Source: Halarcobacter ebronensis (lineage in GTDB: Bacteria; Campylobacterota; Campylobacteria; Campylobacterales; Arcobacteraceae). Taken from it: 64,000 nt of DNA. Location: positions 682,001-746,000 of the forward strand of contig NZ_CP053836.1 in assembly GCF_013201825.1 (NCBI RefSeq), written 5' to 3'. A program made the translations under genes and the position numbers. Below are positions 1,315-19,030 of this stretch, piece by piece. Numbering within the stretch: the first letter of the stretch is position 1; every line of letters starts with the position of its first letter. The notes under the pieces were generated by a model that ran no database searches, had not been told where the DNA came from, and saw nothing but the letters and a program-made list of their open reading frames with translations.

Positions 1315-2508
1315 TTATGATTCCATAACAACTTTATAAGTGTCATTAGCAATTACATACTCTTCATTTGTTGGAATAACAAAGATTCTAGCAGCAGAAC
1401 TATTTGTTGCAATATCCCTTGCATCATTTCTATTTTTATTATTTTTGATTGGGTCTAAAACTAATCCCATACCATCAAGTCCAGTACAAACTATCTCTCT
1501 AATAAGTGCAGAGTTTTCACCAATACCACCAGTAAAACATAAAGCATCAACACCATCAAGTGCAGCAACATAAGAACCAACATATTTTTTGATATTATAA
1601 GCAACCATATCAACAGCTAATCTACATCTTTCATCATCGTGCATAGCAGCAAGAACTTCCCTTAAGTCAGAGGATTTTCCAGAGATTCCCAAGATACCAG
1701 ATTTTTTGTTCATAAGTTCAGTTATTTGGTCAATATCAAGTCCCTCTTGTTTCATCATATAACTAATTGCACCAGCACCAACATCTCCAGATCTAGTACC
1801 CATCATAAGACCTTGAACAGGAGTAAGACCCATTGAAGTATCAATTGATTTTCCATTTAATACAGCTGTTACAGATGAACCATTTCCTAAGTGACAAACA
1901 ATAATTCTTGTGTTTCTTTTTTTATCTAACATTTGTCTAGCTTCATTTGAAACATAGTAGTGGCTTGTCCCATGGAAACCATATTTTCTAATTTTGTGTT
2001 TAGTATATTGATCATAAGGCAAGGCATACATATAAGCATAATCAGGCATAGTTTGATGAAACACAGTATCAAAAACAGCAACATTTGGTTTTCCTGGAAG
2101 TAGCTCTTGACAAATTTTCATTCCTAAAATATTTGCAGGGTTATGCAGAGGTGCTAAGGGAATAAGCGCCTCAATTTTAGCAATAACCTCTTCTGTAACA
2201 AGTGTTGATTTTTGGAAAAACTCTCCACCATGGGCAACCCTATGTCCTGTTGCTTGGATACTATCAATTGAATCAATAACCTTACCTTCACCCACAGTTA
2301 AAGTAGATAAAACAGCTTCAATAGCTTCTTTGTGTGTAGGCATGTCAATCTCTAACTTAAGCTCTTTGCCATCCCCATACTCATGCTTTAATACCCCATC
2401 TATACCAATTCTCTCACAAATCCCTGATGCAAAAACTTTTTTTATCACTGGATTCATTAATTGATACTTTAATGATGAACTACCTGCGTTTAAAATAAAT
2501 ACTAACAT
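1315..2508 (-). CDS. ackA: acetate kinase (complete copy in operon with pta copy A)
   Basis: Catalyses acetyl phosphate plus ADP to acetate plus ATP, and the reverse, in the cytoplasm. At 397 residues it has the usual length. It has the ASKHA-fold signatures of acetate kinase: NAGSSSLK at 7-14, GHRVAHGG, FDTVFHQTMP around the catalytic Asp, KYGFHGTSH with the catalytic His, TRSGD with the active-site Arg, and PTNEEYVIA near the C-terminus. It starts 19 nt after the pta stop with a good ribosome site (AAGGGGAAAAG), so it is co-transcribed with pta copy A. It is a different protein from the ackA at 5121-6308, which is clearly diverged. Confidence 0.96.
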   Translation of the reverse strand: MLVFILNAGSSSLKYQLMNPVIKKVFASGICERIGIDGVLKHEYGDGKELKLEIDMPTHKEAIEAVLSTLTVGEGKVIDSIDSIQATGHRVAHGGEFFQKSTLVTEEVIAKIEALIPLAPLHNPANILGMKICQELLPGKPNVAVFDTVFHQTMPDYAYMYALPYDQYTKHKIRKYGFHGTSHYYVSNEARQMLDKKRNTRIIVCHLGNGSSVTAVLNGKSIDTSMGLTPVQGLMMGTRSGDVGAGAISYMMKQEGLDIDQITELMNKKSGILGISGKSSDLREVLAAMHDDERCRLAVDMVAYNIKKYVGSYVAALDGVDALCFTGGIGENSALIREIVCTGLDGMGLVLDPIKNNKNRNDARDIATNSSAARIFVIPTNEEYVIANDTYKVVMES

Positions 2509-2527
2509 GTCTTTTCCCCTTCTTTTA

Positions 2528-3520
2528 TTAACATTGTGTTGCTGTTATAGCTACTAAGTTTGCAATGTCTTCTACTGAACACCCTCTTGATAAGTCATTT
2601 ACTGGTTTTGCTAATCCTTGTACAATTGGTCCATGCGCTTGTGCATTTGCAAATCTTTGTACTAATTTATACCCTATATTTCCAGATTGTAAATCAGGGA
2701 ATACTAATATATTAGCTTTTCCTGCTACTTTTGAATCTGGCGCTTTTTTTGCTCCAATTGCTTCAACTATTGCTGCATCCGCTTGCATCTCTCCATCAAA
2801 AGCAAAATCAACAGCTCTATCTTTTAATATTTGAACTGCCTCTTGTACTTTTGATACAAGTGGATGTGAAGCACTTCCCATTGTAGAAAATGATAACATT
2901 GCTACTCTTGGCTCTAACCCTACAACTGATTTAGCTGTTGCTGCTGTACTAGAAGCAATGTCAGCTAATTGTTCTGCTGTTGGTTCTGGTAATACTGCAC
3001 AATCTGCAAACAATAGAAGTCCATTGTCTCCAAATTTACCATCTGCTGTTTCCATTACAAATGCTGATGATACAGTTTTTATCCCTGGTGCTGTTTTTAT
3101 TACTTGAATTCCTGCTCTTAATACATCAGCAGTTGGTGAGTTTGATCCTGCAACTAAGCCATCTGCATCACCTAGTCTTACCATCATACAACCAAAAAAT
3201 CTAGGCTCACTAGTCATAAGTTCAGTTGCCTCTTCTTTAGTCATACATTTAGATTTTCTTAATTCCATTAATTCGTGAATATATTTATCTATTCCAGCAT
3301 AAGATTTAGGATCGATAATCGTAGCACCTTCTATGTTGGCACCACATGAGTTTGCATCTGCTTTAATCTTCTCTTCGTTTCCAATTAAGATTACATTTGC
3401 AGTTTTCTCTTCCAAAACCATTGCCGTAGCTTTTAGGACTCTCTCATCCTCTGGTTCTGGAAGTACTATAGTTTTAAGCTCTCTTTTTGCATTCTCTTTA
3501 ATACTCTCTATTAAACCCAT
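2528..3520 (-). CDS. pta: phosphate acetyltransferase (copy A)
   Basis: Acetyl-CoA/acetyl phosphate interconversion, first gene of a pta-ackA operon. It is a 330-residue short-form Pta with the same motifs as copy B. The ribosome site AAGGAAGCGA lies just before the ATG. Coding DNA is identical to copy B throughout; identity stops one base upstream of the start codon, and beyond that the two 5' regions are related but diverged. The upstream region carries the same direct-repeat operator as copy B. The identity suggests recent homogenisation or, less interestingly, an assembly issue. Confidence 0.95.
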   Translation of the reverse strand: MGLIESIKENAKRELKTIVLPEPEDERVLKATAMVLEEKTANVILIGNEEKIKADANSCGANIEGATIIDPKSYAGIDKYIHELMELRKSKCMTKEEATELMTSEPRFFGCMMVRLGDADGLVAGSNSPTADVLRAGIQVIKTAPGIKTVSSAFVMETADGKFGDNGLLLFADCAVLPEPTAEQLADIASSTAATAKSVVGLEPRVAMLSFSTMGSASHPLVSKVQEAVQILKDRAVDFAFDGEMQADAAIVEAIGAKKAPDSKVAGKANILVFPDLQSGNIGYKLVQRFANAQAHGPIVQGLAKPVNDLSRGCSVEDIANLVAITATQC

Positions 3521-3541: not shown

Positions 3542-3575
3542 ATTACATAATGAAAGCGTAGCATAAAAATAGCAT
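3542..3575 (-). promoter_or_regulatory. acetate-box operator and -10 for pta copy A
   Basis: TAGCAT at 3559-3564 and 3570-3575 (+ strand) form an 11-bp direct repeat. In the reading direction a -10-like TGTAAT (3542-3547) follows after exactly 11 nt, the same spacing as at pta copy B and the DUF4212-symporter operon. The predicted transcript start is only about 15 nt before the start codon. Inferred operator. Confidence 0.6.
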
Positions 3576-8902: not shown

Positions 8903-10552
8903 TTAATGGTCAACAGCTCCTGCTGCTCCAAATCCTGTTTCAGCTCTTACACTTTGTGCTTCAAAAGCTTTTTGTTCATCTTTTGCTCTTTGAGAGTTAT
9001 CTGTAATAGAGAAGAACCAAATACCAACAAATGCTGCTGTTACTGAGAATAAAGCAGGGTATTTGTATGGGAAGATAGCCTCTTCATTATGTAAAATACT
9101 AACCCAAACAGTTGGTCCAAGTATAACCAAAATTACAGCTGTAAGTAATCCAATAAATCCACCAATAACTGCTCCTCTTGTTGTAAGTCTTGACCAATAA
9201 ATTGATAAAAATAGAATAGGGAAATTTGCCGATGCTGCAATAGCAAAAGCAAGACCAACCATAAATGCAATATTTTGTTGTTCAAATGCAATACCAAGTA
9301 AAACACCAATAATACCAATAACAATTACTGCAATTTTAGAGATTCTAATCTCTTGCTCTTCTGTTGCATTTGTATTAATTACAGATGCATAAATATCATG
9401 AGATATTGCAGAAGCTCCTGCTAGAGTTAGTCCTGATACAACAGCTAAAATAGTTGCAAAAGCAACAGCTGAAATAAATCCTAAAAATACATTTCCACCT
9501 ACAACATGTGAAAGGTGAATAGCAGCCATATTATTTCCACCAAATAGTTTACCATCTACAAAATATTTAGCTCCCTCTGGAGAGTTTAAAAATACAATTG
9601 CACCAAGACCAATAATTGCAATTACTAAATAGAAGTAACCAATAAATCCTGTTGCATAAACAACAGATTTTCTAGCCTCTTTTGCATTTCCAACTGTAAA
9701 GAATCTCATAAGAACGTGTGGTAATCCAGCTGTTCCTAGCATTAATGCAAGTCCTAAAGATATTGCAGAAATTGGATCAGAAACTAATCCTCCTGGTTCC
9801 ATAATTGCTTGTCCATCTTTGTGTATCTCAACTGCTTTTGTTGCAAGAGCTTCAAAACTAAATCCAAAATGGCTTAGAACCATAAATCCCATAAAAGAAA
9901 CTCCAGATAGTAGTAAAATTGCTTTAATAATCTGTACCCAAGTTGTTGCAAGCATTCCACCAAAAGTTACATAAATAATCATCATTACCCCAACAAGTAC
10001 AACAGCATACTCATACTCTAAACCAAATAGAACTTGAATAAGTTTTCCTGAACCAACCATTTGTGCAATTAGGTATAAAGTAACAACAGCCAATGAACCA
10101 AAAGCAGCTAGTGTTCTAATCTCTTTTTGTCCAAGTCTATATGCAGCAATATCTGCAAAAGTAAATTTACCTAAGTTTCTTAGTTTTTCTGCCATTAAAA
10201 ATAAAATAACAGGCCAACCAACTAAAAATCCAACCGCATAAACAAGTCCATCATAACCTTTTAGATAAACAAGTCCAGAGATACCTAAGAATGATGCCGC
10301 AGACATATAATCCCCTGCAATCGCCATACCATTTTGAAATCCAGAGATACCTCCCCCAGCTGTATAAAAATCACTAGCTGATTTTGTTCTTCTTGCCGCC
10401 CAATAAGTGATACCTAAAGTTCCACCAATAAAGATAAAGAACATTATAATTGCAGGGATATTCAACTCTCTTTTTGTTGCTTCAAAAGTTGCATCTCCCC
10501 CTGCAAATAGTGCAACTGCTAAAACTGATAAAATTGCAAATATTTTAAACAT
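8903..10552 (-). CDS. actP: cation/acetate symporter ActP
   Basis: An inner-membrane sodium/solute symporter of 549 residues, the same length as E. coli ActP. After an N-terminal hydrophobic leader it has the SSS-family series of membrane helices. Typical family stretches are [20 protein letters not shown] near residue 76, and [15 protein letters not shown] in the middle. It overlaps the stop of the DUF485 gene by one base, the classic yjcH-actP arrangement. It brings in acetate and other short monocarboxylates for the Pta-AckA route. Confidence 0.93.
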
Positions 10553-10866
10553 TATAATTCATCCTTTACATCTTCTCTTACTTTTTCAATCAAATCTTCA
10601 TACTCACCATTTGCTTTTGCCACATATATTAAAGTTGTTATAAAACTAATAACAATGATTGCAATCCCAATAGGGTATGCTATAGTCATAACTCCATCTC
10701 CTGTTTTTGTTCCAAGAATTGATGGGTTAAATGCGATTGTTAGAATATATGAGTAAAACATTACCAAAACAAAAATTCCAAGTTTTACGGCAAAGCCTGT
10801 TCTTTTTTTTACTAACTCTTGATAGTTAGGATTTGCTTTGATTTTTGCTACTAATTCATCATTCAT
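10552..10866 (-). CDS. DUF485 small membrane protein, partner of ActP
   Basis: A 104-residue protein with two membrane helices (about 27-47 and 62-86) and the family motif [15 protein letters not shown] near the N-terminus, as in E. coli YjcH. Its stop overlaps the actP start, so translation is probably coupled. It is the first gene of the actP operon. It has a good ribosome site (GGGAAGGA). A TATAAT lies about 80 nt upstream at roughly 10945. Confidence 0.9.
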
Positions 10867-11047
10867 AAATTATCCTTCCCTTTTTTATTTTTAGTCAATT
10901 ATTTACTCTACGTTGCAAACATTAATAACTAAAACTTGAAAAATTATACATTTTTTTGTAAATTAGACAAAATCAAGAAATGATTTTTAAGTAAAATTTA
11001 AGTTGTTGAAAAGAGTTAGTAACTAATAGTTACAAGATGAAAATAAA

Positions 11048-11064
11048 ATGCTATTTTAATGCTA
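11048..11064. promoter_or_regulatory. reversed acetate box between exonuclease 2 and the DUF485-actP operon
   Basis: ATGCTA at 11048-11053 and 11059-11064 on the + strand gives the same 11-bp direct repeat as at the pta promoters, but in opposite orientation relative to the minus-strand genes. It lies about 180 bp upstream of the DUF485 start and 23 bp downstream of the exonuclease stop. Flanking bases (AAA before, CG after) match the pta copy A site, so it is unlikely to be chance. Confidence 0.5.
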
Positions 11065-11086: not shown

Positions 11087-11719
11087 TTAACCAGTATAAA
11101 AAGTTGTGTTAGCAGGTGCTTTATCCTTAAGTTTTAGAAAAATCATTGAGGTCATAAGCGCATCATTTAGTGCATCATGTTTTCCAAGTTCAGGAATATC
11201 CAACTCTTTCATAATTGTGTCAAATTTCAAATCAACAAATTCATACTCACTTCTTCTTTTTATTGTTTTAAAGTACATTGATGAAACTTCAATTTGGTGA
11301 TTAGGAAGAGATATTCCTATATACTCTTTTGTATATTTAGAAATAATTGCAATATCAAATTTTATGTAATAACCAATTATTGGTCTATTTCCTATAAACT
11401 CAAGAAGTTTAAAAATTGCTTCTTTTGGTTCAGAGGCATTTTCTAAATCTACAGGTCTTATTTGATGAATTTTAATTGATGCACTATTTATACCTTTAGA
11501 GGGTTTTACAAAGATATTTAGAGTATCTCTCATTAAAATCTTATTTTTTTTGATTATAACTGCACCAATAGATAAAATTTCATCTTTTTTTGGATTTAAT
11601 CCTGTTGTTTCACAATCTAAACACACATATTCATCTTTTGGTGGTTCATTAAAAAGATATTCAAAATTTTTGTCCTTTAGACTATTCTTTCGAATTTTAT
11701 TCATAAATTTTTTTAACAT
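11087..11719 (-). CDS. DEDDh 3'-5' exonuclease paralogue, linked to the second symporter
   Basis: A 210-residue DnaQ-like exonuclease with Exo I DCETTG near residue 38, Exo II GYYIKFD and Exo III HDALNDA. It is clearly homologous along its length to the 206-residue exonuclease at 6384-7004, including the basic N-terminus. Its start shares one base with the stop of the upstream DUF294 gene, so the two are translationally coupled. It is the last gene of the second symporter unit. Confidence 0.85.
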   Translation of the reverse strand: MLKKFMNKIRKNSLKDKNFEYLFNEPPKDEYVCLDCETTGLNPKKDEILSIGAVIIKKNKILMRDTLNIFVKPSKGINSASIKIHQIRPVDLENASEPKEAIFKLLEFIGNRPIIGYYIKFDIAIISKYTKEYIGISLPNHQIEVSSMYFKTIKRRSEYEFVDLKFDTIMKELDIPELGKHDALNDALMTSMIFLKLKDKAPANTTFYTG

Positions 11720-13533
11720 TATAAAATCTTTTCTATTCTAAACGTGTAGATAATAAATTTTTTAAAGCTGATTACAATTTTAAAACTATCTTTTAATAGA
11801 TCCCTCTCTATTTTCCCTAGAGCGTGAGTATCTATCTCATTGTTTATCTTCTTTTTATCTTGTAGTTGGTGAAGATGAGATTTCAGTCTTAGGGTATTTA
11901 GAACTTCAAAAGCTTCTAAAAGTTCATTTGCCATCTGATTTTCTAGAACTTTTTTTTGATTTAAGATTTTTATTCTTTTTACTGTTGTAGTTTCTCTGAT
12001 TTTTTCCCTTAAAGCCAAGCTTCTAATCCCTTGAACTATTGGAAATATTCCAGTCTTTTTAATATCTATAAAGTAAGTTTTTGTCATAAAATTTGCAACT
12101 GTACTTGGAGTATCAAAAGTTAGTGTTGCTTTGGCAAAATATGCCATAAAAACATCTTTATCGTGAAGTTTATTAAACAAGTCATCTTTTAAATTTATAA
12201 GTAACTCTTTTTCTCCTGCAACTGCAAAAGAGTCAAAAAATATTGCCAAATCCATGTAGTTTTGCATGGCTGGTGCTTCAATCCATCTTGCTGTTTCACT
12301 TTTATATTGTTGTACAGTTTTGCACCAAAATGGGTTACTAACCATAATATTGCCTTCACATGGTGGATAACCAAAATCTATTAATGTTTTAGTCATCTCT
12401 TGCATATATGGTCTATATTGTTCAACATCTATTCCATCTTTTACAACCAATGCATTATCTTGGTCAGTTTTTATAATTTGTTCATTTCTCCCTTCACTTC
12501 CCATAACAATAAAACAAGCATCTTTTTGAAGCTCTTTAGGAACAATAAATTTATAAATCTTTTTATAGACTTTAGTATTTAGCTGACCTATTAAACTTGA
12601 AATATGATTTACTTTTACACCTTTTGCATTAAGTGTTCTTATGGTACTTATTAACTCACCACTTGCATCTTTTAACTCTTCTAGATTTCTTGCATTTTTT
12701 ATTTTTGTATCAACAACAAAAGTGTGGTTTGCAAAATGAGATAAAACATCAATTTGTTCCAGTGTTCCTAACATTTTGCCACTATTGTCAACAACACCAA
12801 CTCTTTTGATATTTTTTTTGATTAGAAGAGTTAAGGCATCAAAAAGATAATCATCTTGATTGATAGTAATCAAAGGGAAAATAGCAATCTCTTCAACAAG
12901 TATATTTAAATCTCTTCCTTCTAAAAGAACTTTTACCTTTAAAAGTGAGTCTGTAATAATTCCATACTCATTTTCACCTTTTACAAGAATTGTAGAAGTT
13001 GCATATTCCATTGATTTTTCAATTGCATCAATTAGGGTAGTTCCTTTTTCAACAATACAAGCAGGATGAAGTATAGTATCATGTACTCTTGCAATCATAA
13101 AAGAAGAGAGTTCTGATTTATACTCTTTCTCTTTTAGTGTTTGGAATTTATTAACTAGATTGTTTAAAAAGAAATCTTTGAATCCTTCATTTTGTTCAAT
13201 TAGTTCAAGAAATATTGTTTTTTCGATTTCATAACAGATTAAATCTTCATAGACCCTAAAGCTATTGTTTGTTTTCCCATAGATTAAAGAGTTCGCGTCA
13301 AAAGAGTCTTGTTGATGGAAATCCATCAATATCTCATCCTCTTTATACTCATGGACAATCCCTTTAATTACAATAAAAAAGTGATTAGGAATTTTTTCTG
13401 GAGTTATTAAAACCTCTCCTTTTGCATAGTATGCAATATCCATGTGTCTAATACATTTGTCCATTTGTTCTTCTGCCAAGAGTTCAAAGGGGTGTATATT
13501 TGAAAGAAAAGATTTTTGATCTCGAAGACTCAT
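11719..13533 (-). CDS. cNMP-binding / CBS pair / DUF294 nucleotidyltransferase-like protein (copy 2)
   Basis: A 604-residue paralogue of the protein at 6997-8838 with the same order: cNMP-like domain, two CBS domains, GlnD-like nucleotidyltransferase (GSEGRNEQIIKTDQDNAL near residue 345) and helical C-terminal domain. I start at the ATG at 13533; a TTG one codon earlier would sit too close to the AAGGAG ribosome site. N-terminal halves of the two paralogues have diverged much more than the nucleotidyltransferase motif, as expected if they sense different ligands or serve different transporters. It is co-transcribed with the exonuclease. Confidence 0.87.
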   Translation of the reverse strand: MSLRDQKSFLSNIHPFELLAEEQMDKCIRHMDIAYYAKGEVLITPEKIPNHFFIVIKGIVHEYKEDEILMDFHQQDSFDANSLIYGKTNNSFRVYEDLICYEIEKTIFLELIEQNEGFKDFFLNNLVNKFQTLKEKEYKSELSSFMIARVHDTILHPACIVEKGTTLIDAIEKSMEYATSTILVKGENEYGIITDSLLKVKVLLEGRDLNILVEEIAIFPLITINQDDYLFDALTLLIKKNIKRVGVVDNSGKMLGTLEQIDVLSHFANHTFVVDTKIKNARNLEELKDASGELISTIRTLNAKGVKVNHISSLIGQLNTKVYKKIYKFIVPKELQKDACFIVMGSEGRNEQIIKTDQDNALVVKDGIDVEQYRPYMQEMTKTLIDFGYPPCEGNIMVSNPFWCKTVQQYKSETARWIEAPAMQNYMDLAIFFDSFAVAGEKELLINLKDDLFNKLHDKDVFMAYFAKATLTFDTPSTVANFMTKTYFIDIKKTGIFPIVQGIRSLALREKIRETTTVKRIKILNQKKVLENQMANELLEAFEVLNTLRLKSHLHQLQDKKKINNEIDTHALGKIERDLLKDSFKIVISFKKFIIYTFRIEKIL

Positions 13534-13632
13534 CAAATCTCCTTGATTTAGTTTAATTTATTATAGTAAAGATAATCTAAAGAAGAGTACTCTTTTTTAT
13601 CCCTTAAGATAAGTGATAAAAAAAAGCACTAT

Positions 13633-13663
13633 AAAAAAGTCAACCCGAAGGTTGAACTTTTTT
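13633..13663 (-). terminator. terminator after the VC_2705-type symporter
   Basis: A stem of AAAAAAGT-CAACC with GGTTG-A-ACTTTTTT around a CGAA tetraloop, one bulged base, covers the symporter stop codon. The A/T ends give a U tract in the minus direction. It separates the transporter pair from the DUF294-exonuclease pair, as the hairpin at 8871 does in the first unit. Confidence 0.75.
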
Positions 13664-15539
13664 AGTGATTGTGAGCTTCCCCAGCGTTGTTAGGTAATCT
13701 AATAGACTCTACTAGTTCCTGAACATGTTGCGGTGGTTCTGGCGTCATTCTTGATACAGCAAATGCCACTATTAAGTGTAAGATTGTACCAATTGTACCA
13801 ATACCAGTTGGTGCAATTCCTAAGAAATAATCTTCTGGTTTTCCACCTAAGAATACGAAGTATACAATATACCCGAATGTAAAGATAAGACCTGTTAGGA
13901 TACCTGCAATTGCACCCTCTTTATTCATTCTTTTATCAAATATTCCAAGAATAATTGTAGGGAAGAATGCAGCTGCCGCAAGACCAAATGCAAAAGCAAC
14001 AACTTGTGCAACGAAACCTGGAGGGTTAATTCCTAAATAACCTGCCACACAAATTGCAACTACCGCTGAAATTCTTGCCCAAGTTAATTCAGTTTTTTCT
14101 GTTAATTTAGATTTTCCAGTCTCTGGATCTCTAAATATTACTTGTCCCATTAAGTCATGAGAGATTGCTGATGCAATTACAAGTAATAATCCCGCTGCTG
14201 TTGATAGTGCTGCTGCAAGACCCCCAGCAGCTATGAATGCAATAACCCAATTAGGTAAGTTTGCAATCTCTGGATTTGCAAGAACCATAATATCTCTATC
14301 AACATATAATTCATTTTCAATTTTTCCAGTATTTGCTAATGGTTTACCATTAGTTGTAGCTCTTTCACCATTTGGACCAACATTCGTTCCATCAAATACA
14401 GGTTTTCCACCTTTACCATCAAATGCATCACCTGGAGCATATTGAATTTTACCATCTCCATTTCTATCTGTCCATGCTAATAATCCACCTTGTTCCCAAG
14501 TGTTGAACCATTTACCATGATTTGGAGTTCCATCTGCGTGTTTTAATTCACCAGCAACAAACGCTTTATATTCAACATTTTGTACATTTTTGATTAAATT
14601 TAATCTAGCAAATGCAGCAACTGAAGATGCAGTTGTATACATAATTGCAATAAATACAAGTGCCCAACCAGCAGAGATTCTAGCATCTTTTACAGTTGGA
14701 ACTGTAAAAAATCTAACAATAACGTGTGGAAGACCAGCTGTACCAAGCATAAGTGCAGTTGTTAACATAAACATATTCCATAAACTTCCTGGCTCAGTAT
14801 AAGCTTTAAATCCAAGGTCTGTAATGGCTGTATCCAAGGCATGTAATAAGTATGTTCCTTCAGGAATAACTTTTACTCCATCATCAAAAGCAAATGTTGT
14901 TTGACCAAAAAGTGCTAATTGTGGGAAAAATGTATCTGTAATCTGTAAAGATAAGAAGATTGCAGGAATTAAATATGCCATAATCATTACACAATATTGT
15001 GCAACTTGAGTATAAGTAATACCTTTCATTCCACCAAGTACAGAGTAGAAGAATACAATTGCCATACCAATAAGTACACCTGTATTTACATCAACTTGTA
15101 AAAATCTTGAGAATACAATACCAACCCCTCTCATTTGTCCTGCAACATATGTAAATGAAATAAAGATTACACAAATAACAGCAACAGTTCTTGCTACATT
15201 TGAGTAGTATCTATCTCCCACGAAGTCAGGAACAGTAAATTTACCAAATTTTCTTAAATATGGAGCTAGTAACATTGCAAGTAGAACGTATCCACCTGTC
15301 CAACCCATTAAGTATGCACTCGCATCAGAACCTTTAAATGCAATGATCCCTGCCATTGAAATAAATGATGCAGCTGACATCCAGTCTGCAGCCGTAGCCA
15401 TACCATTTGCAACTGGATGAACACCACCACCTGCAACATAGAAGTCCTTAGTAGAACCAGCTTTTGCCCAAAGTGCAATACCAATATATAGTGCGAATGA
15501 AACGCCTACGAATAAATATATTAATGTTTGTAATTCCAT
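13662..15539 (-). CDS. sodium:solute symporter, VC_2705 subfamily (acetate-type)
   Basis: A 625-residue inner-membrane SSS-family symporter, longer than ActP. It has the family stretches STKDFYVAGGGVHPVANGM near residue 29 and [15 protein letters not shown] near 266. An extra hydrophilic loop at about 320-420 carries an EF-hand/dockerin-like calcium loop, DRNGDGKI at 358-365. It pairs with the DUF4212 small subunit 9 nt upstream, the standard two-gene unit. Likely substrate is acetate or a related monocarboxylate. Upstream lies an operator-like direct repeat and a two-component system. Confidence 0.9.
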   Translation of the reverse strand: MELQTLIYLFVGVSFALYIGIALWAKAGSTKDFYVAGGGVHPVANGMATAADWMSAASFISMAGIIAFKGSDASAYLMGWTGGYVLLAMLLAPYLRKFGKFTVPDFVGDRYYSNVARTVAVICVIFISFTYVAGQMRGVGIVFSRFLQVDVNTGVLIGMAIVFFYSVLGGMKGITYTQVAQYCVMIMAYLIPAIFLSLQITDTFFPQLALFGQTTFAFDDGVKVIPEGTYLLHALDTAITDLGFKAYTEPGSLWNMFMLTTALMLGTAGLPHVIVRFFTVPTVKDARISAGWALVFIAIMYTTASSVAAFARLNLIKNVQNVEYKAFVAGELKHADGTPNHGKWFNTWEQGGLLAWTDRNGDGKIQYAPGDAFDGKGGKPVFDGTNVGPNGERATTNGKPLANTGKIENELYVDRDIMVLANPEIANLPNWVIAFIAAGGLAAALSTAAGLLLVIASAISHDLMGQVIFRDPETGKSKLTEKTELTWARISAVVAICVAGYLGINPPGFVAQVVAFAFGLAAAAFFPTIILGIFDKRMNKEGAIAGILTGLIFTFGYIVYFVFLGGKPEDYFLGIAPTGIGTIGTILHLIVAFAVSRMTPEPPQHVQELVESIRLPNNAGEAHNH

Positions 15540-15548
15540 CTATGACTC

Positions 15549-15803
15549 CTATTCATGTACGCCATATTTTTCATCAATTGATGCCATTTTTGCAACATAA
15601 ACAAAAATCAATATAACGAATGCATAGATTGCACCTTGTTGTGCAAACCAAAACCCTAATTTAACACCAGAAATTTCAATTTGATTAAGTTCATTAATAA
15701 ATAGAATTCCACAACCAAAAGAGACAATAAACCATACAACTAATAATTTAAGTATAGTTGAAATGTTTTCTTTCCAATAAGCTTGAGCTTTCTCAGGACT
15801 CAT
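15549..15803 (-). CDS. DUF4212 symporter small subunit
   Basis: An 84-residue protein with two membrane helices (about 15-37 and 48-70) and the family start SPEKAQAYWKENI. It is the small-subunit partner of VC_2705-type sodium symporters. It has a ribosome site (AGGAG) and is the first gene of the operon. Its promoter region holds two pairs of 11-bp direct repeats and a TATACT -10. Confidence 0.9.
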   Translation of the reverse strand: MSPEKAQAYWKENISTILKLLVVWFIVSFGCGILFINELNQIEISGVKLGFWFAQQGAIYAFVILIFVYVAKMASIDEKYGVHE

Positions 15804-15862: not shown

Positions 15863-15936
15863 AGTATAAGCCTCAACTATAGCAAAAATGTAGCAATGAA
15901 AAATATTTTTTTTTAAACGTAGGATTAGTGTAGCAA
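15863..15936 (-). promoter_or_regulatory. double direct-repeat operator and -10 for the DUF4212-symporter operon
   Basis: TAGCA at 15880 and 15891 (11-bp period), plus TAGGA at 15920 and TAGCA at 15931 (again 11 bp), form two tandem half-site pairs. In the reading direction a TATACT -10 (15863-15868) follows the proximal pair after exactly 11 nt. The response-regulator gene ends only 35 bp upstream. This fits two dimers of an OmpR-family activator. Inferred. Confidence 0.6.
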
Positions 15937-15970: not shown

Positions 15971-16633
15971 TTAAACTGAATAAAATCTATCAATTTTATA
16001 ACCAAGACCTCTAATATTTTTTATAAAATCCTCTTTTAGTGCTTTTTTTAGTCTAGAAATCTCTGCTCTTATAGTTGGATTGTCAATATTTTCTCCACTC
16101 CAAATATCCATTCTAAACTTTTCAAAGTCAACAATCATATTTATATTAAGTGCCAAAATATGAATAATATCAAGCTGTTTTTTAGTTAAAGTTTGAGGTT
16201 CACCATTAAAATATAGAGTCTTTTTATCTTTTGAATAAGAGTAATTCTCTGAAAATCTAATATGAGAAGTTGTTTTTTGGTCTTTTTTTAGTATTTGATT
16301 TATCTTAATTCCTAACTCTTCTAAATGAAAAGGTTTTTTAATGTACTCTCTACAACCCAAATCATATGCTCTTGTGATATCTTCTATATCATTTAAAGCT
16401 GTTATAAATATTGTTGGAATATAGATTCTTTTCATATTAAGCTCTTGTAAAATCTCAAACCCATCTTTTTTAGGTACATTTATATCTAGTACAAGTAAGT
16501 CATAACTTATATCTATACTATTTATTACCTCTTCACCATCAGTGAAACTTTCAACCATATGCCCAATGCTTCTTAGATATTCTGAGATTGCATTATTCAA
16601 CATTAATTCATCTTCAAGAAGTAGTATTTTCAT
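15971..16633 (-). CDS. OmpR-family response regulator
   Basis: A 220-residue regulator: receiver domain (1-115) with acidic pocket EDE near residue 7, phospho-acceptor Asp in LLVLDINVPKKDG near 52 and the conserved Lys in YIKKPFHLEELG near 100, followed by a winged-helix domain (about 125-218). It overlaps the histidine kinase gene by 20 nt. It sits directly upstream of the DUF4212-symporter operon, whose promoter has the 11-bp direct repeats typical of this regulator class. I infer that it controls the acetate genes of this region. Confidence 0.9.
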   Translation of the reverse strand: MKILLLEDELMLNNAISEYLRSIGHMVESFTDGEEVINSIDISYDLLVLDINVPKKDGFEILQELNMKRIYIPTIFITALNDIEDITRAYDLGCREYIKKPFHLEELGIKINQILKKDQKTTSHIRFSENYSYSKDKKTLYFNGEPQTLTKKQLDIIHILALNINMIVDFEKFRMDIWSGENIDNPTIRAEISRLKKALKEDFIKNIRGLGYKIDRFYSV

Positions 16634-18203
16634 TTATTCTAAACCTATAAGTAAATTTTGTTTCAGTGTCAGTAGATTCAAGTTTGATTATAACCAAATT
16701 TTTATCACATATTTCTTTTACAATCCTAAGCCCCAGTCCAAAGCCTCCTCGAGAGTTATTTTCTCTATAAAAATCATCAAAAATCTTATTTATATTTTCA
16801 ATTTTTTCTGAGTTTGTTTTTACGCTAAACTCTATAAAATCATTTTTAAAATATGTAAGTCTTACATAAATAGCAGATTTTGCATAAGAGTATTTTATTG
16901 AGTTAGAGATATTATTATCTATAATTCTTTGAAGTTCTATTCTATTAAATTTAATATATATATCTTCATCAATATTAGTTGTAAAATGTAAATCATTTGA
17001 AGTAGCTATCCCTTCAAAAAAGTTTAGTCTCTCTTTCAAATATAAAGAGAAATCAATGTACTCTTTTGGATAATCAACTCTGTCTTTTTTTATTAAATAG
17101 GAAAGATCATCATATATATATTGAATGATTTTAGCGCCACTTTCAATATTTGATATATATTTATTTTCCTCTTTTAAAGTATTCATTTTAAGTAGATCTA
17201 TATTTGTTCTTATAATAGACAATGGAGTATTTATCTCATGTACAGAGTTTTTCAAAAACTTCTTTTGTGAATCAATTAGATTTTGAAGCTCTTTTGTTTG
17301 ATGATTTACTGTCTCTTCAAGGTGTTTATTTATATCCCTTAACATTGTATTTTTATCTTTGATATTGTGCATTGCATCATAAGCATAGTTTGCAATAACT
17401 TTAAACTCTCCAAAAATAAGTCTGTCCTGTTTAATTCTAAGATCATCTTTTTGTGACTCTTTAAAATATTTCCCTATCTCTTTTACATCGTTAACAATCA
17501 ATATGGTTGCATTTTTGTAAATAAAAATAGAGTAAAGAACTAACATAACAGTTAAAGAGACAATTTGAAGAATATAGTTAGATATCTTTTCATCATATTC
17601 ATCTTTTTTTATTTGGACAATCTTATTAATTTCATCTAGGTAGATACCTCTTCCAACTGTCCAATTAAGAGGTTCATATGCGTGAGCATAGGAGATTTTA
17701 AGGGCATCATCTTTTATTTCTGGTTTATACCAAATATATTGTACAAATCCGCCATCTTTTTTCTTTGAGATATCAATTAACTCTTTTATAACCTTTTTCC
17801 CAGAAGGGTCTTTAAACTCATAAAGATTTTTACCTATATACTCTTTTGAAATTGGATAATAAATTGATGTTCCATCAAAGTCATAAATAAAGAGATAATT
17901 GTTTAGTTTTTCATTCTCTCGCATCTTTTCTAAAGCTTCAAGAATATCATTTTTTATCTCATTTTCACTTTTTATATCTTTGAATTTATTGTAGTAGTAG
18001 TTAATAAATTTTAGACTCTTTTTTACATCAGCTTCTATTAAATCTTTTTGTTTATTCTCATAGTCCGTTTTTATTATTTTAATTTTCTCTTGAAATTCAT
18101 CAAAAGCATTTTCAATAATTATAAAGGTAAAAGAGGAGGTTAAAATTATAATAAAAAAGATACTGTATAAAATAAGATGGTAAAGGGATTTTGCTTTAAT
18201 CAT
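16614..18203 (-). CDS. sensor histidine kinase with periplasmic Cache domain
   Basis: A 529-residue membrane kinase. The first membrane helix is at about 8-30, a periplasmic single-Cache (sCache_2-like) domain runs about 40-200, a second helix follows near 215, then a signalling helix, a dimerisation region with the H box SVHEINTPL near 313, and an ATPase domain ending with the G box GGFGLGLRIVKEI. The Cache domain suggests direct sensing of a small organic acid. It precedes and overlaps its response regulator. A TATAAT lies just upstream at 18218-18223. Confidence 0.9.
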   Translation of the reverse strand: MIKAKSLYHLILYSIFFIIILTSSFTFIIIENAFDEFQEKIKIIKTDYENKQKDLIEADVKKSLKFINYYYNKFKDIKSENEIKNDILEALEKMRENEKLNNYLFIYDFDGTSIYYPISKEYIGKNLYEFKDPSGKKVIKELIDISKKKDGGFVQYIWYKPEIKDDALKISYAHAYEPLNWTVGRGIYLDEINKIVQIKKDEYDEKISNYILQIVSLTVMLVLYSIFIYKNATILIVNDVKEIGKYFKESQKDDLRIKQDRLIFGEFKVIANYAYDAMHNIKDKNTMLRDINKHLEETVNHQTKELQNLIDSQKKFLKNSVHEINTPLSIIRTNIDLLKMNTLKEENKYISNIESGAKIIQYIYDDLSYLIKKDRVDYPKEYIDFSLYLKERLNFFEGIATSNDLHFTTNIDEDIYIKFNRIELQRIIDNNISNSIKYSYAKSAIYVRLTYFKNDFIEFSVKTNSEKIENINKIFDDFYRENNSRGGFGLGLRIVKEICDKNLVIIKLESTDTETKFTYRFRINENTTS

Positions 18204-18290
18204 TAATAACCTTGCGTATTATATAGATTAAAGGATAACTTAAAAATATTAAAAAATAGATAAAAATGATTGATTAAAAAGGAAGGTAAG

Positions 18291-18367
18291 TGGCGCGGCC
18301 GACGAGACTCGAACTCGCGACCTCCTGCGTGACAGGCAGGCATTCTAACCGACTAAACTACGGCCGC
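18291..18367 (-). tRNA. tRNA-Asp (GTC), copy 1
   Basis: A 77-nt cloverleaf with CCA encoded, acceptor stem GCGGCCG/CGGCCGC, anticodon loop CTGTCAC with anticodon GTC. It is the last tRNA of the cluster. It differs from the other tRNA-Asp by one base in the D loop. Confidence 0.95.
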
Positions 18368-18417
18368 ACACTTAGCAAAAAAAAAGCGCTTAACGCGCAA
18401 AGAACATATTAAGTTCA

Positions 18418-18493
18418 TGGTGGTCGATATAAGACTCGAACTTATGACATCTACCTTGTAAGGGTAGCGCTCTACCAACTGAGCTAATCGACC
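18418..18493 (-). tRNA. tRNA-Val (TAC), copy 1
   Basis: A 76-nt tRNA with CCA encoded, acceptor GGTCGAT/ATCGACC, anticodon loop CTTACAA with anticodon TAC. Confidence 0.95.
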
Positions 18494-18495
18494 AG

Positions 18496-18571
18496 TGGTG
18501 ACCCGTGAAGGATTCGAACCTTCGGCCACCTCCTTAAAAGGGAGATGCTCTACCGGCTGAGCTAACGGGTC
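18496..18571 (-). tRNA. tRNA-Lys (TTT), copy 1
   Basis: A 76-nt tRNA with CCA encoded, acceptor GACCCGT/ACGGGTC, anticodon loop CTTTTAA with anticodon TTT. It is only 2 nt from tRNA-Val. Confidence 0.95.
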
Positions 18572-18582
18572 AATAATCAAAG

Positions 18583-18659
18583 TGGCGCGGCCGACGAGAC
18601 TCGAACTCGCGACCTCCTGCGTGACAGGCAGGCATTCTAACCAACTAAACTACGGCCGC
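18583..18659 (-). tRNA. tRNA-Asp (GTC), copy 2
   Basis: A 77-nt tRNA, the same as copy 1 except one D-loop base. Anticodon GTC, CCA encoded. Confidence 0.95.
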
Positions 18660-18673
18660 ACCTTGATTAAAAA

Positions 18674-18748
18674 TGGTGACCCCTAGGAGACTCGAACTCC
18701 TGTGGCAAGGATGAAAACCTTGAATCCTAACCGCTAGATGAAGGGGCC
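18674..18748 (-). tRNA. tRNA-Glu (TTC), copy 1
   Basis: A 75-nt tRNA with CCA encoded. The acceptor is GGCCCCT paired to AGGGGTC, with a G-U pair at position 2. The anticodon loop is TTTTCAT with anticodon TTC. Confidence 0.95.
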
Positions 18749-18761
18749 AACAATGAAAAAA

Positions 18762-18837
18762 TGGTGGTCGATATAAGACTCGAACTTATGACATCTACCT
18801 TGTAAGGGTAGCGCTCTACCAACTGAGCTAATCGACC
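18762..18837 (-). tRNA. tRNA-Val (TAC), copy 2
   Basis: A 76-nt tRNA identical in sequence to the Val tRNA at 18418-18493. Anticodon TAC. Confidence 0.95.
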
Positions 18838-18845
18838 GAAAAAAA

Positions 18846-18920
18846 TGGTGACCCCTAGGAGACTCGAACTCCTGTGGCAAGGATGAAAACCTTGAATCCT
18901 AACCGCTAGATGAAGGGGCC
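18846..18920 (-). tRNA. tRNA-Glu (TTC), copy 2
   Basis: A 75-nt tRNA identical to the Glu tRNA at 18674-18748. Anticodon TTC. Confidence 0.95.
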
Positions 18921-18954
18921 ACAAAAAAATCTCTACATTAAGTAGAAAAGTATA

Positions 18955-19030
18955 TGGTGACCCGTGAAGGATTCGAACCTTCGGCCACCTCCTTAAAAGG
19001 GAGATGCTCTACCGGCTGAGCTAACGGGTC
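18955..19030 (-). tRNA. tRNA-Lys (TTT), copy 2, first of the cluster
   Basis: A 76-nt tRNA identical to the Lys tRNA at 18496-18571. It is the promoter-proximal member; the transcript order is Lys-Glu-Val-Glu-Asp-Lys-Val-Asp. Confidence 0.95.

Follow-up and report, generated by a model that had tools for sequence, protein, structure and literature searches.

The window analysed here is the whole stretch of 64,000 nucleotides (G000:C1:682001-746000) taken from the 3.17-Mb genome G000, and the features described below lie on its minus strand unless stated otherwise. A two-component pair is encoded at 15971–16633 and 16614–18203: the first gene specifies an OmpR/PhoB-type response regulator (RR1; PF00072 and PF00486 above cut-off), the second a sensor histidine kinase (HK1) with a Cache sensor domain (dCache_2/sCache_2), HisKA and HATPase_c. 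A run of repeated tRNA-like genes adjoins the kinase gene (18290–19030, from sequence alone). Downstream of RR1 are found a DUF4212 small symporter subunit (15549–15803; PF13937, TIGR03647), a VC_2705-family sodium/solute symporter (13662–15539; TIGR03648, SSF) and, according to domain matches, a DUF294 cNMP/CBS nucleotidyltransferase-like protein (11719–13536), an RNase_T exonuclease (11087–11719) and a YjcH-like DUF485 protein (10552–10866), partner of ActP. The cation/acetate symporter ActP itself (8903–10552) matches NF006903 above the cut-off of this model. The beginning of the window carries ackA (acetate kinase, 1315–2508; TIGR00016) and two copies of pta (phosphotransacetylase; NCBIfam and Pfam), copy B at 153–1145 and copy A, identical to it, at 2528–3520.

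The two pta copies belong to a tandem duplicate: positions 1–1145 and 2376–3520, comprising the end of ackA and the whole of pta, agree in 1145 of 1145 bases. Their promoters have diverged with the operator described below kept at both. Since three relatives (G054, G067 and G068) likewise have two pta copies with a box before each, the pair is older, and the identity of the copies in the window's own genome then suggests gene conversion.

Read in the direction of transcription, the operator is WTGCTA-N5-WTGCTA. It was found upstream of pta copy B (ATGCTATTTATATGCTA, 1191–1207), upstream of pta copy A (ATGCTATTTTTATGCTA, 3559–3575) and 5′ of the DUF4212-symporter operon (TTGCTACATTTTTGCTA, 15880–15896), with a −10 hexamer exactly 11 nt from the box in all three cases: TATAAT (1174–1179), TGTAAT (3542–3547) and TATACT (15863–15868), respectively. 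A weaker second operator, a looser pair (TTGCTACACTAATCCTA, 15920–15936), lies upstream of the main DUF4212-operon box. An earlier note on this DNA had pointed out these three sites, the looser pair and the constant distance to the −10, and all of its coordinates were confirmed in the sequence; it had overlooked a fourth exact operator at DUF485-actP, situated on the plus strand (11048–11064), inverted with respect to these genes and 99 nt upstream of their TRTAAT hexamer. The likely extended −10 of DUF485-actP is TGTATAAT (10943–10950).

Exact WTGCTA-N5-WTGCTA occurred four times in the window against 0.10 expected, a count reached in none of 100 shuffles, and the box followed by N11 and TRTAMT, with at most one mismatch, occurred three times against 0.00 expected. 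The TAGCAT form in which the motif had been proposed, allowed the two mismatches that the third site needs, gave 13 occurrences against 9.3 expected (15 of 100 shuffles were as high; not significant). This loose pattern was rejected as a motif definition for lack of enrichment in the window: the signal comes from the strict form, which has W and includes the −10.

The whole genome holds eight exact boxes. Exact box-N11-TATAMT is found three times, before pta copy B, the DUF4212 operon and the gene of an amino-acid ABC binding protein (best NCBIfam match TIGR01096, below cut-off). Exact boxes at 2490806, 2666367 and 2831751 were rejected, as they did not have the look of promoters of the same kind; the first is located beyond what we presume to be a recN-like gene and the second at the end of a presumably hemC-like gene. 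Candidate boxes with one mismatch were collected, from this genome alone, at 207615, 1524090 and 1679894. The specificity of the box alone was judged by its spacing and not by a reversed-pattern control, on which we did not rely because reversal of the letters alters dinucleotides. Among 16 genomes of the genus, TGCTA-N3..8-WTGCTA-N7..15-TATAMT was matched 63 times, 51 times at exactly 5 and 11, the remaining 53 spacing combinations together accounting for 12 matches. Both the window shuffles and this spacing control indicate that the motif is not common at random. Family-wide, the exact site was present in 93 of 104 genomes (backwards control: 0), and a sample of 298 genomes from across the order showed it in 27 of the 30 that belong to the family and in 21 of the remaining 268 (split counted by hand).

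A full-length match to the regulator of at least 68% identity was found in 79 of the 104 family genomes, own genome included (hand count), and the 30 best-matching of these loci were read. In all 30 a box follows the regulator gene and precedes DUF4212, exact in 28 loci and with one mismatch in 2, so that the motif is present in the orthologous promoters. The −10 located 11 nt from the exact boxes is TATAMT in 27 of the 28 loci and TATAGT in the other. Upstream of the main box, a second box with one mismatch was observed in all 16 loci of the genus, at 40 bp in 4 and at 50 bp in 12, distances which differ by about one helical turn; in 14 loci of other genera a second box was seen with one mismatch once and with two mismatches twice. 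On this comparison, the looser pair upstream of the DUF4212 promoter is a real element.

The sites also follow the presence of the regulator: they were found in 92 of 94 family genomes possessing a member of the RR1 family (E up to 1e-50) and in one of 10 without it, a co-occurrence whose weight is limited because it is confounded with phylogeny. The two regulator-bearing genomes devoid of sites are 54% and 61% complete, and one genome (G043) carries a site but no close regulator. RR1 consists of a receiver and a Trans_reg_C winged helix, and the 11-bp direct repeats cover the −35 position relative to the predicted −10. Its comparison with named NCBIfam equivalogs gave at best 117 bits for a cut-off of 370 (RprY), and 76 for 296 in the case of PhoB, among the best 25 of 86 families. 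We predict that WTGCTA-N5-WTGCTA is probably the operator of RR1 in a Cache-kinase acetate regulon. The control of these genes by RR1, as proposed earlier, is supported by the co-occurrence and by the orthologous sites, but not as the regulon of an activator alone.

RR1 has a paralogue, RR2, 53% identical to it, whose partner is a FIST-domain kinase. The RR2 locus looks like a sister regulon with a near-identical operator, an aldehyde dehydrogenase gene being divergent from the genes of the FIST-domain kinase and RR2; tandem 11-bp GCTA repeats, four as counted by eye, occupy this aldehyde dehydrogenase promoter in the window's genome (G000:C1:2710337-2710375, about 3338–3375 of locus L174). 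In one relative (locus L194, G026:C1:640500-646500) the RR1 gene is broken by stops and a change of frame; the neighbouring kinase, operator and symporter were matched over long stretches.

The boxes might then be bound mainly by RR2, or by both regulators. Cross-binding is possible because RR2 has similar tandem repeats, with the same 11-bp length and GCTA core, at the promoter of its own aldehyde dehydrogenase. Residues TIR-E--R near the C-terminus are moreover common to all 11 aligned regulators, and the relative with the broken RR1 (G026) keeps an intact RR2 together with three sites. However, 17 g2-genus genomes gave no RR2 and yet sites are present in 16 of them, the best site directly follows RR1, and RR2-side sites often carry a TATTCA-like filling. 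In genera without a close RR1 the nearest regulator is RR1/RR2-like, about 50% identical, and a Cache kinase adjoins it in 8 of 9 such loci read. Altogether we judge a main or shared role of RR2 at these boxes to be quite improbable. Far less credence still can be given to the idea that the boxes serve some unrelated global regulator, or a sigma variant, as a promoter element. Their location in place of the −35 would suit such an element, but only three exact box-N11-TATAMT sites exist in the 3.17 Mb, the boxes also form 11-bp tandem arrays and adopt inverted and downstream placements at actP, and they track one regulator family. Recognition by RR1 is the reading retained below.

To describe the targets, sites were read in 12 loci of the own genome, 30 automatic loci and 40 chosen regions, and the proportions given here are no census. 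Counted by distinct site strings, the first downstream frame was pta (18), an amino-acid binding protein (11), DUF4212 or its symporter (9), acetyl-CoA synthetase (8, one of which was confirmed by NCBIfam and Pfam) or DUF294 (1); the remainder comprised two other long proteins (L140 and L143) and a group in which a reading frame is far off or lacking. The acetate regulon of the earlier note is supported insofar as sites of the relatives mostly precede acetate genes in the loci read, but an amino-acid binding protein has to be added, as well as a predicted small RNA, and the former does not fit a regulon for acetate alone. Where a genus has no close ortholog of the regulator, sites were found before acsA, DUF485-actP, DUF4212 and DUF294. 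Outside the family, one site was read in each of 14 of the 21 site-bearing genomes. Five of these 14 lie before acsA, SatP-acsA, DUF294 or DUF4212; five lie beside a FIST-kinase paralogue, before an aldehyde dehydrogenase or what is presumably an aldehyde oxidoreductase; one, again beside a FIST-kinase paralogue, precedes what we take to be a TRAP transporter, and three are without a clear target.

The placement differs at DUF485-actP. A direct box is located 14–17 nt downstream of TRTAAT in 11 of the 30 DUF485-actP leaders read (10 of 23 in the genus), and 10 and 18 nt downstream in two further leaders. Of the 12 first-copy leaders read in the genus, 10, the window's among them, have an inverted box at least 87 nt upstream of TRTAAT, as against 0 of 11 second-copy leaders. 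In loci L260 and L271, arrays of overlapping inverted boxes face one direct box upstream of DUF485-actP. A box over the likely transcription start should repress, and we infer a repressing position for the downstream box at the relatives' actP. The two actP boxes read in genus g12 both lie at the activating distance, and would activate. This reading of repression and activation excludes the window's own actP, where the inverted upstream box was found alone and no downstream box is present. With many actP sites of relatives at a repressor position, the picture of a pure activator drawn in the earlier note does not hold.

As for the signal, the profile of the kinase sensor half matches the solved Cache domains 2qhk/4exo, 4k08 and 5g4y with E values from 7e-29 to 4e-20. 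Pyruvate is reported in 4EXO, acetate in 4K08 and propionate in PscD (PMC5062169). Residues Y103, Y156, W158 and K169 are invariant in 27 of 27 aligned kinases (that of the window and those of 26 among the 38 relatives found) and correspond, in a mapping by eye, to Tyr90, Tyr143, Trp145 and Lys156 described for PscD (PMC5062169). By the same mapping, the equivalent of PscD His103, a pocket residue that makes contacts like Tyr90 and Lys156, is variable in the 27 aligned kinases (Tyr, His or Asp). The NCBIfam MctS model was the second-listed match, on the sensor half and far below its cut-off. The likely ligand of HK1 is a C2/C3 carboxylate: acetate, propionate or pyruvate. This agrees with the earlier suggestion that the Cache kinase would sense a small organic acid.

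Sites without a near reading frame are directly followed, on their 3′ side, by a short conserved element. Its form in the genus includes a 27-mer that lies outside the terminator stem and is the same in 13 of the 16 genomes; a search allowing 1–3 mismatches gave no further match in the 104 family genomes. The element is composed of a hairpin with a 15-nt loop, AUUAAACGUCCUUCA, then a terminator-like hairpin and a U tract, with z-scores of −6.1, −4.9 and −4.9 in three examples. In the window's genome it lies at about C1:2722060-2722120 on the minus strand, is about 60 nt long and has an operator with one mismatch. The same genus-specific form was found on three metagenome contigs, labelled Arcobacter sp., Campylobacteraceae and Campylobacterales. 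An exact-pattern search for a second form, with the loop TGCGACCTTCA, found it in 18 of the 104 genomes, 17 of which belong to genus g2. In nine aligned sequences of its stem, 90 of 90 cells are paired, and 7 of the 10 pairs have changed on both sides. None of 500 shuffles reached the number of paired cells or the covariation score; the count of both-side-changed pairs was reached by 23 and that of pair types by 285. The RNA loci read adjoin a bioF-like aminotransferase gene (PF00155). In loci of other genera (L241, L244, L246, L248, L132 and L133) the box starts a TACTAATTTTATATA-like element and a hairpin, with differing presumed seed regions; a reading frame is present 122 and 238 nt downstream of the box in L132 and L133, respectively. 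Rfam gave no match at gathering score in 7 loci and one sub-threshold match, to a plant snoRNA family.

With a promoter-like start, a conserved structure, a terminator-like hairpin and no reading frame, the element is predicted to be a trans-acting small RNA of about 60 nt, terminated, which the conserved site would drive instead of a gene. Alternatively, such elements could be bidirectional terminators of the neighbour genes, no regulatory RNA being made. The hairpin region of the window's genome indeed abuts the end of a convergent gene, and the U tract is weak in genus g2. This explanation is nevertheless unlikely, considering that an operator and a −10 stand directly before the element, that the conserved 27-mer is not part of the terminator stem and gave no near variants with 1–3 mismatches in the genomes searched, and that the TGCGACCTTCA loop is borne by a stem with compensatory changes.

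The genus loop is complementary to GAAGGACG. In a comparison of 127 start regions, in loci picked for holding DUF485-actP, the eleven best duplexes all involved DUF485 leaders. Class-wise, with one DUF485 leader counted as background (a bias against pairing), the genus loop gave a mean of −14.3 kcal/mol with 9 leaders of the second DUF485 copy versus −7.3 with 102 others, and −11.7 kcal/mol with the first copy; 0 of 300 shuffled loops equalled either value. The g2 loop gave a mean of −10.8 kcal/mol with 19 leaders of the second copy versus −5.6 with 59 others, equalled by 3 of 300 shuffled loops, and no pairing signal with the first copy, 197 of 300 shuffled loops being as low. These statistics overstate the significance because orthologous leaders are not independent. 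Eight second-copy leaders of the genus begin ATGAAGGACG and use there the less frequent codons AAG (9.6% of the Lys codons) and GAC (15.5% of the Asp codons). The loop-core complement GAAGGACG was matched 92 times in 8 genomes, and contexts were taken for 70 loci. In five of these genomes (G056, G057, G060, G066, where it does so twice, and G067) it coincides with a DUF485 start, but not in G000, G054 and G055; other matches were, by eye, several in rRNA, or at other gene starts in single genomes. The pairing with actP in the window's genome, in which one DUF485 copy was seen, ranks 9 of 102 leaders. Some actP leaders pair equally well in G065, G005, G012 and G015, genomes that gave no match to the RNA pattern used. 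The loops of the two genera, different in sequence, are predicted by the duplex energies to pair with the same DUF485-actP target.

Activators of the PhoB type overlap the −35 with 11-bp direct repeats at a set distance from the −10. RR1 would resemble them in repeat length and distance to the −10, and differ in half-site and stimulus. Within the phylum, the OmpR-family regulator PceP of Sulfurospirillum was shown by EMSA to bind CTATA direct repeats that cover the −35 and are 6 nt apart, and shares 46% identity with a regulator of Arcobacter ebronensis (PMC7755780). The operator type thus has a precedent in the phylum, because these 11-bp repeats are similar to those described here. The PceS/PceP system, however, controls tetrachloroethene respiration, its consensus is CTATW-N17-CTATW, and the part of the report considered does not mention a small RNA (PMC7755780). 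Acetate activation genes (acs) are under two-component control in Vibrio and Pseudomonas, by CrbS/CrbR (MxtR/ErdR) (PMC5436829, PMC5715377), but the CrbS kinase is described as fused to an SLC5 symporter via STAC (PMC5715377), in contrast to the Cache kinase found here, and the acs regulator of V. vulnificus as LuxR-type (PMC4409781), in contrast to an OmpR-type regulator with 11-bp direct repeats. Accordingly, neither an SLC5-STAC kinase nor a LuxR-type regulator was seen in the Pfam domains of HK1 and RR1. BarA/UvrY of E. coli is an acetate-responsive two-component system driving small RNAs, CsrB and CsrC, which titrate the protein CsrA (PMC8639471), whereas base-pairing with the actP start is predicted here. 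In Campylobacter jejuni, the phylum's BumSR system responds to short-chain fatty acids and activates some genes and represses others, but BumS is reported as a phosphatase sensing branched acids, with targets such as Cjj0438 and peb3 (PMC11796366). The genes actP and yjcH were found to change during contact of A. butzleri with cells, a regulator not being named in the part of that report considered (PMC9927503). The top papers of our open-literature searches described no acetate regulon or small RNA of Arcobacteraceae. The parts of the regulon are of known kinds, and the regulon and RNA themselves have no described counterpart in the literature searched.

We tentatively propose an acetate switch of Arcobacteraceae, in which one operator would work in two modes according to its position, together with a small RNA pairing with the actP start, loop and target having co-changed between genera; we hold this combined scheme to be a serious possibility, somewhat short of an even chance. 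In our main reading, which we hold to be probable, the two 6-mers would represent two 11-bp half-sites bound by a head-to-tail dimer of RR1 at about −40 to −24, in place of a −35. As the operator takes this place, the phosphorylated regulator should activate there, and phosphorylated RR1 would thus activate pta, the DUF4212 symporter and the amino-acid binding protein; in other genera, its targets would include acsA or actP. At many relatives' DUF485-actP, the box 14–17 nt downstream of the −10 would lead to repression. The same regulator would activate the terminated RNA of about 60 nt encoded elsewhere in the genome, the loop of which is predicted to mask either the ribosome-binding site or the start codon on the DUF485-actP mRNA. 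As a result, acetate import would be shut off in a feed-forward manner at the same time as pta-ackA is raised.

If true, this would constitute a coherent feed-forward loop closing high-affinity acetate import upon induction of pta-ackA, and would give Arcobacter and its relatives a named acetate control system for the whole family, as well as a conserved family small RNA with a predicted target. The paralogous regulators with closely related operators, one for acetate and the other for aldehyde, may offer a clean case of specificity arising after duplication. Acetate is a main currency of anoxic habitats and of the gut.
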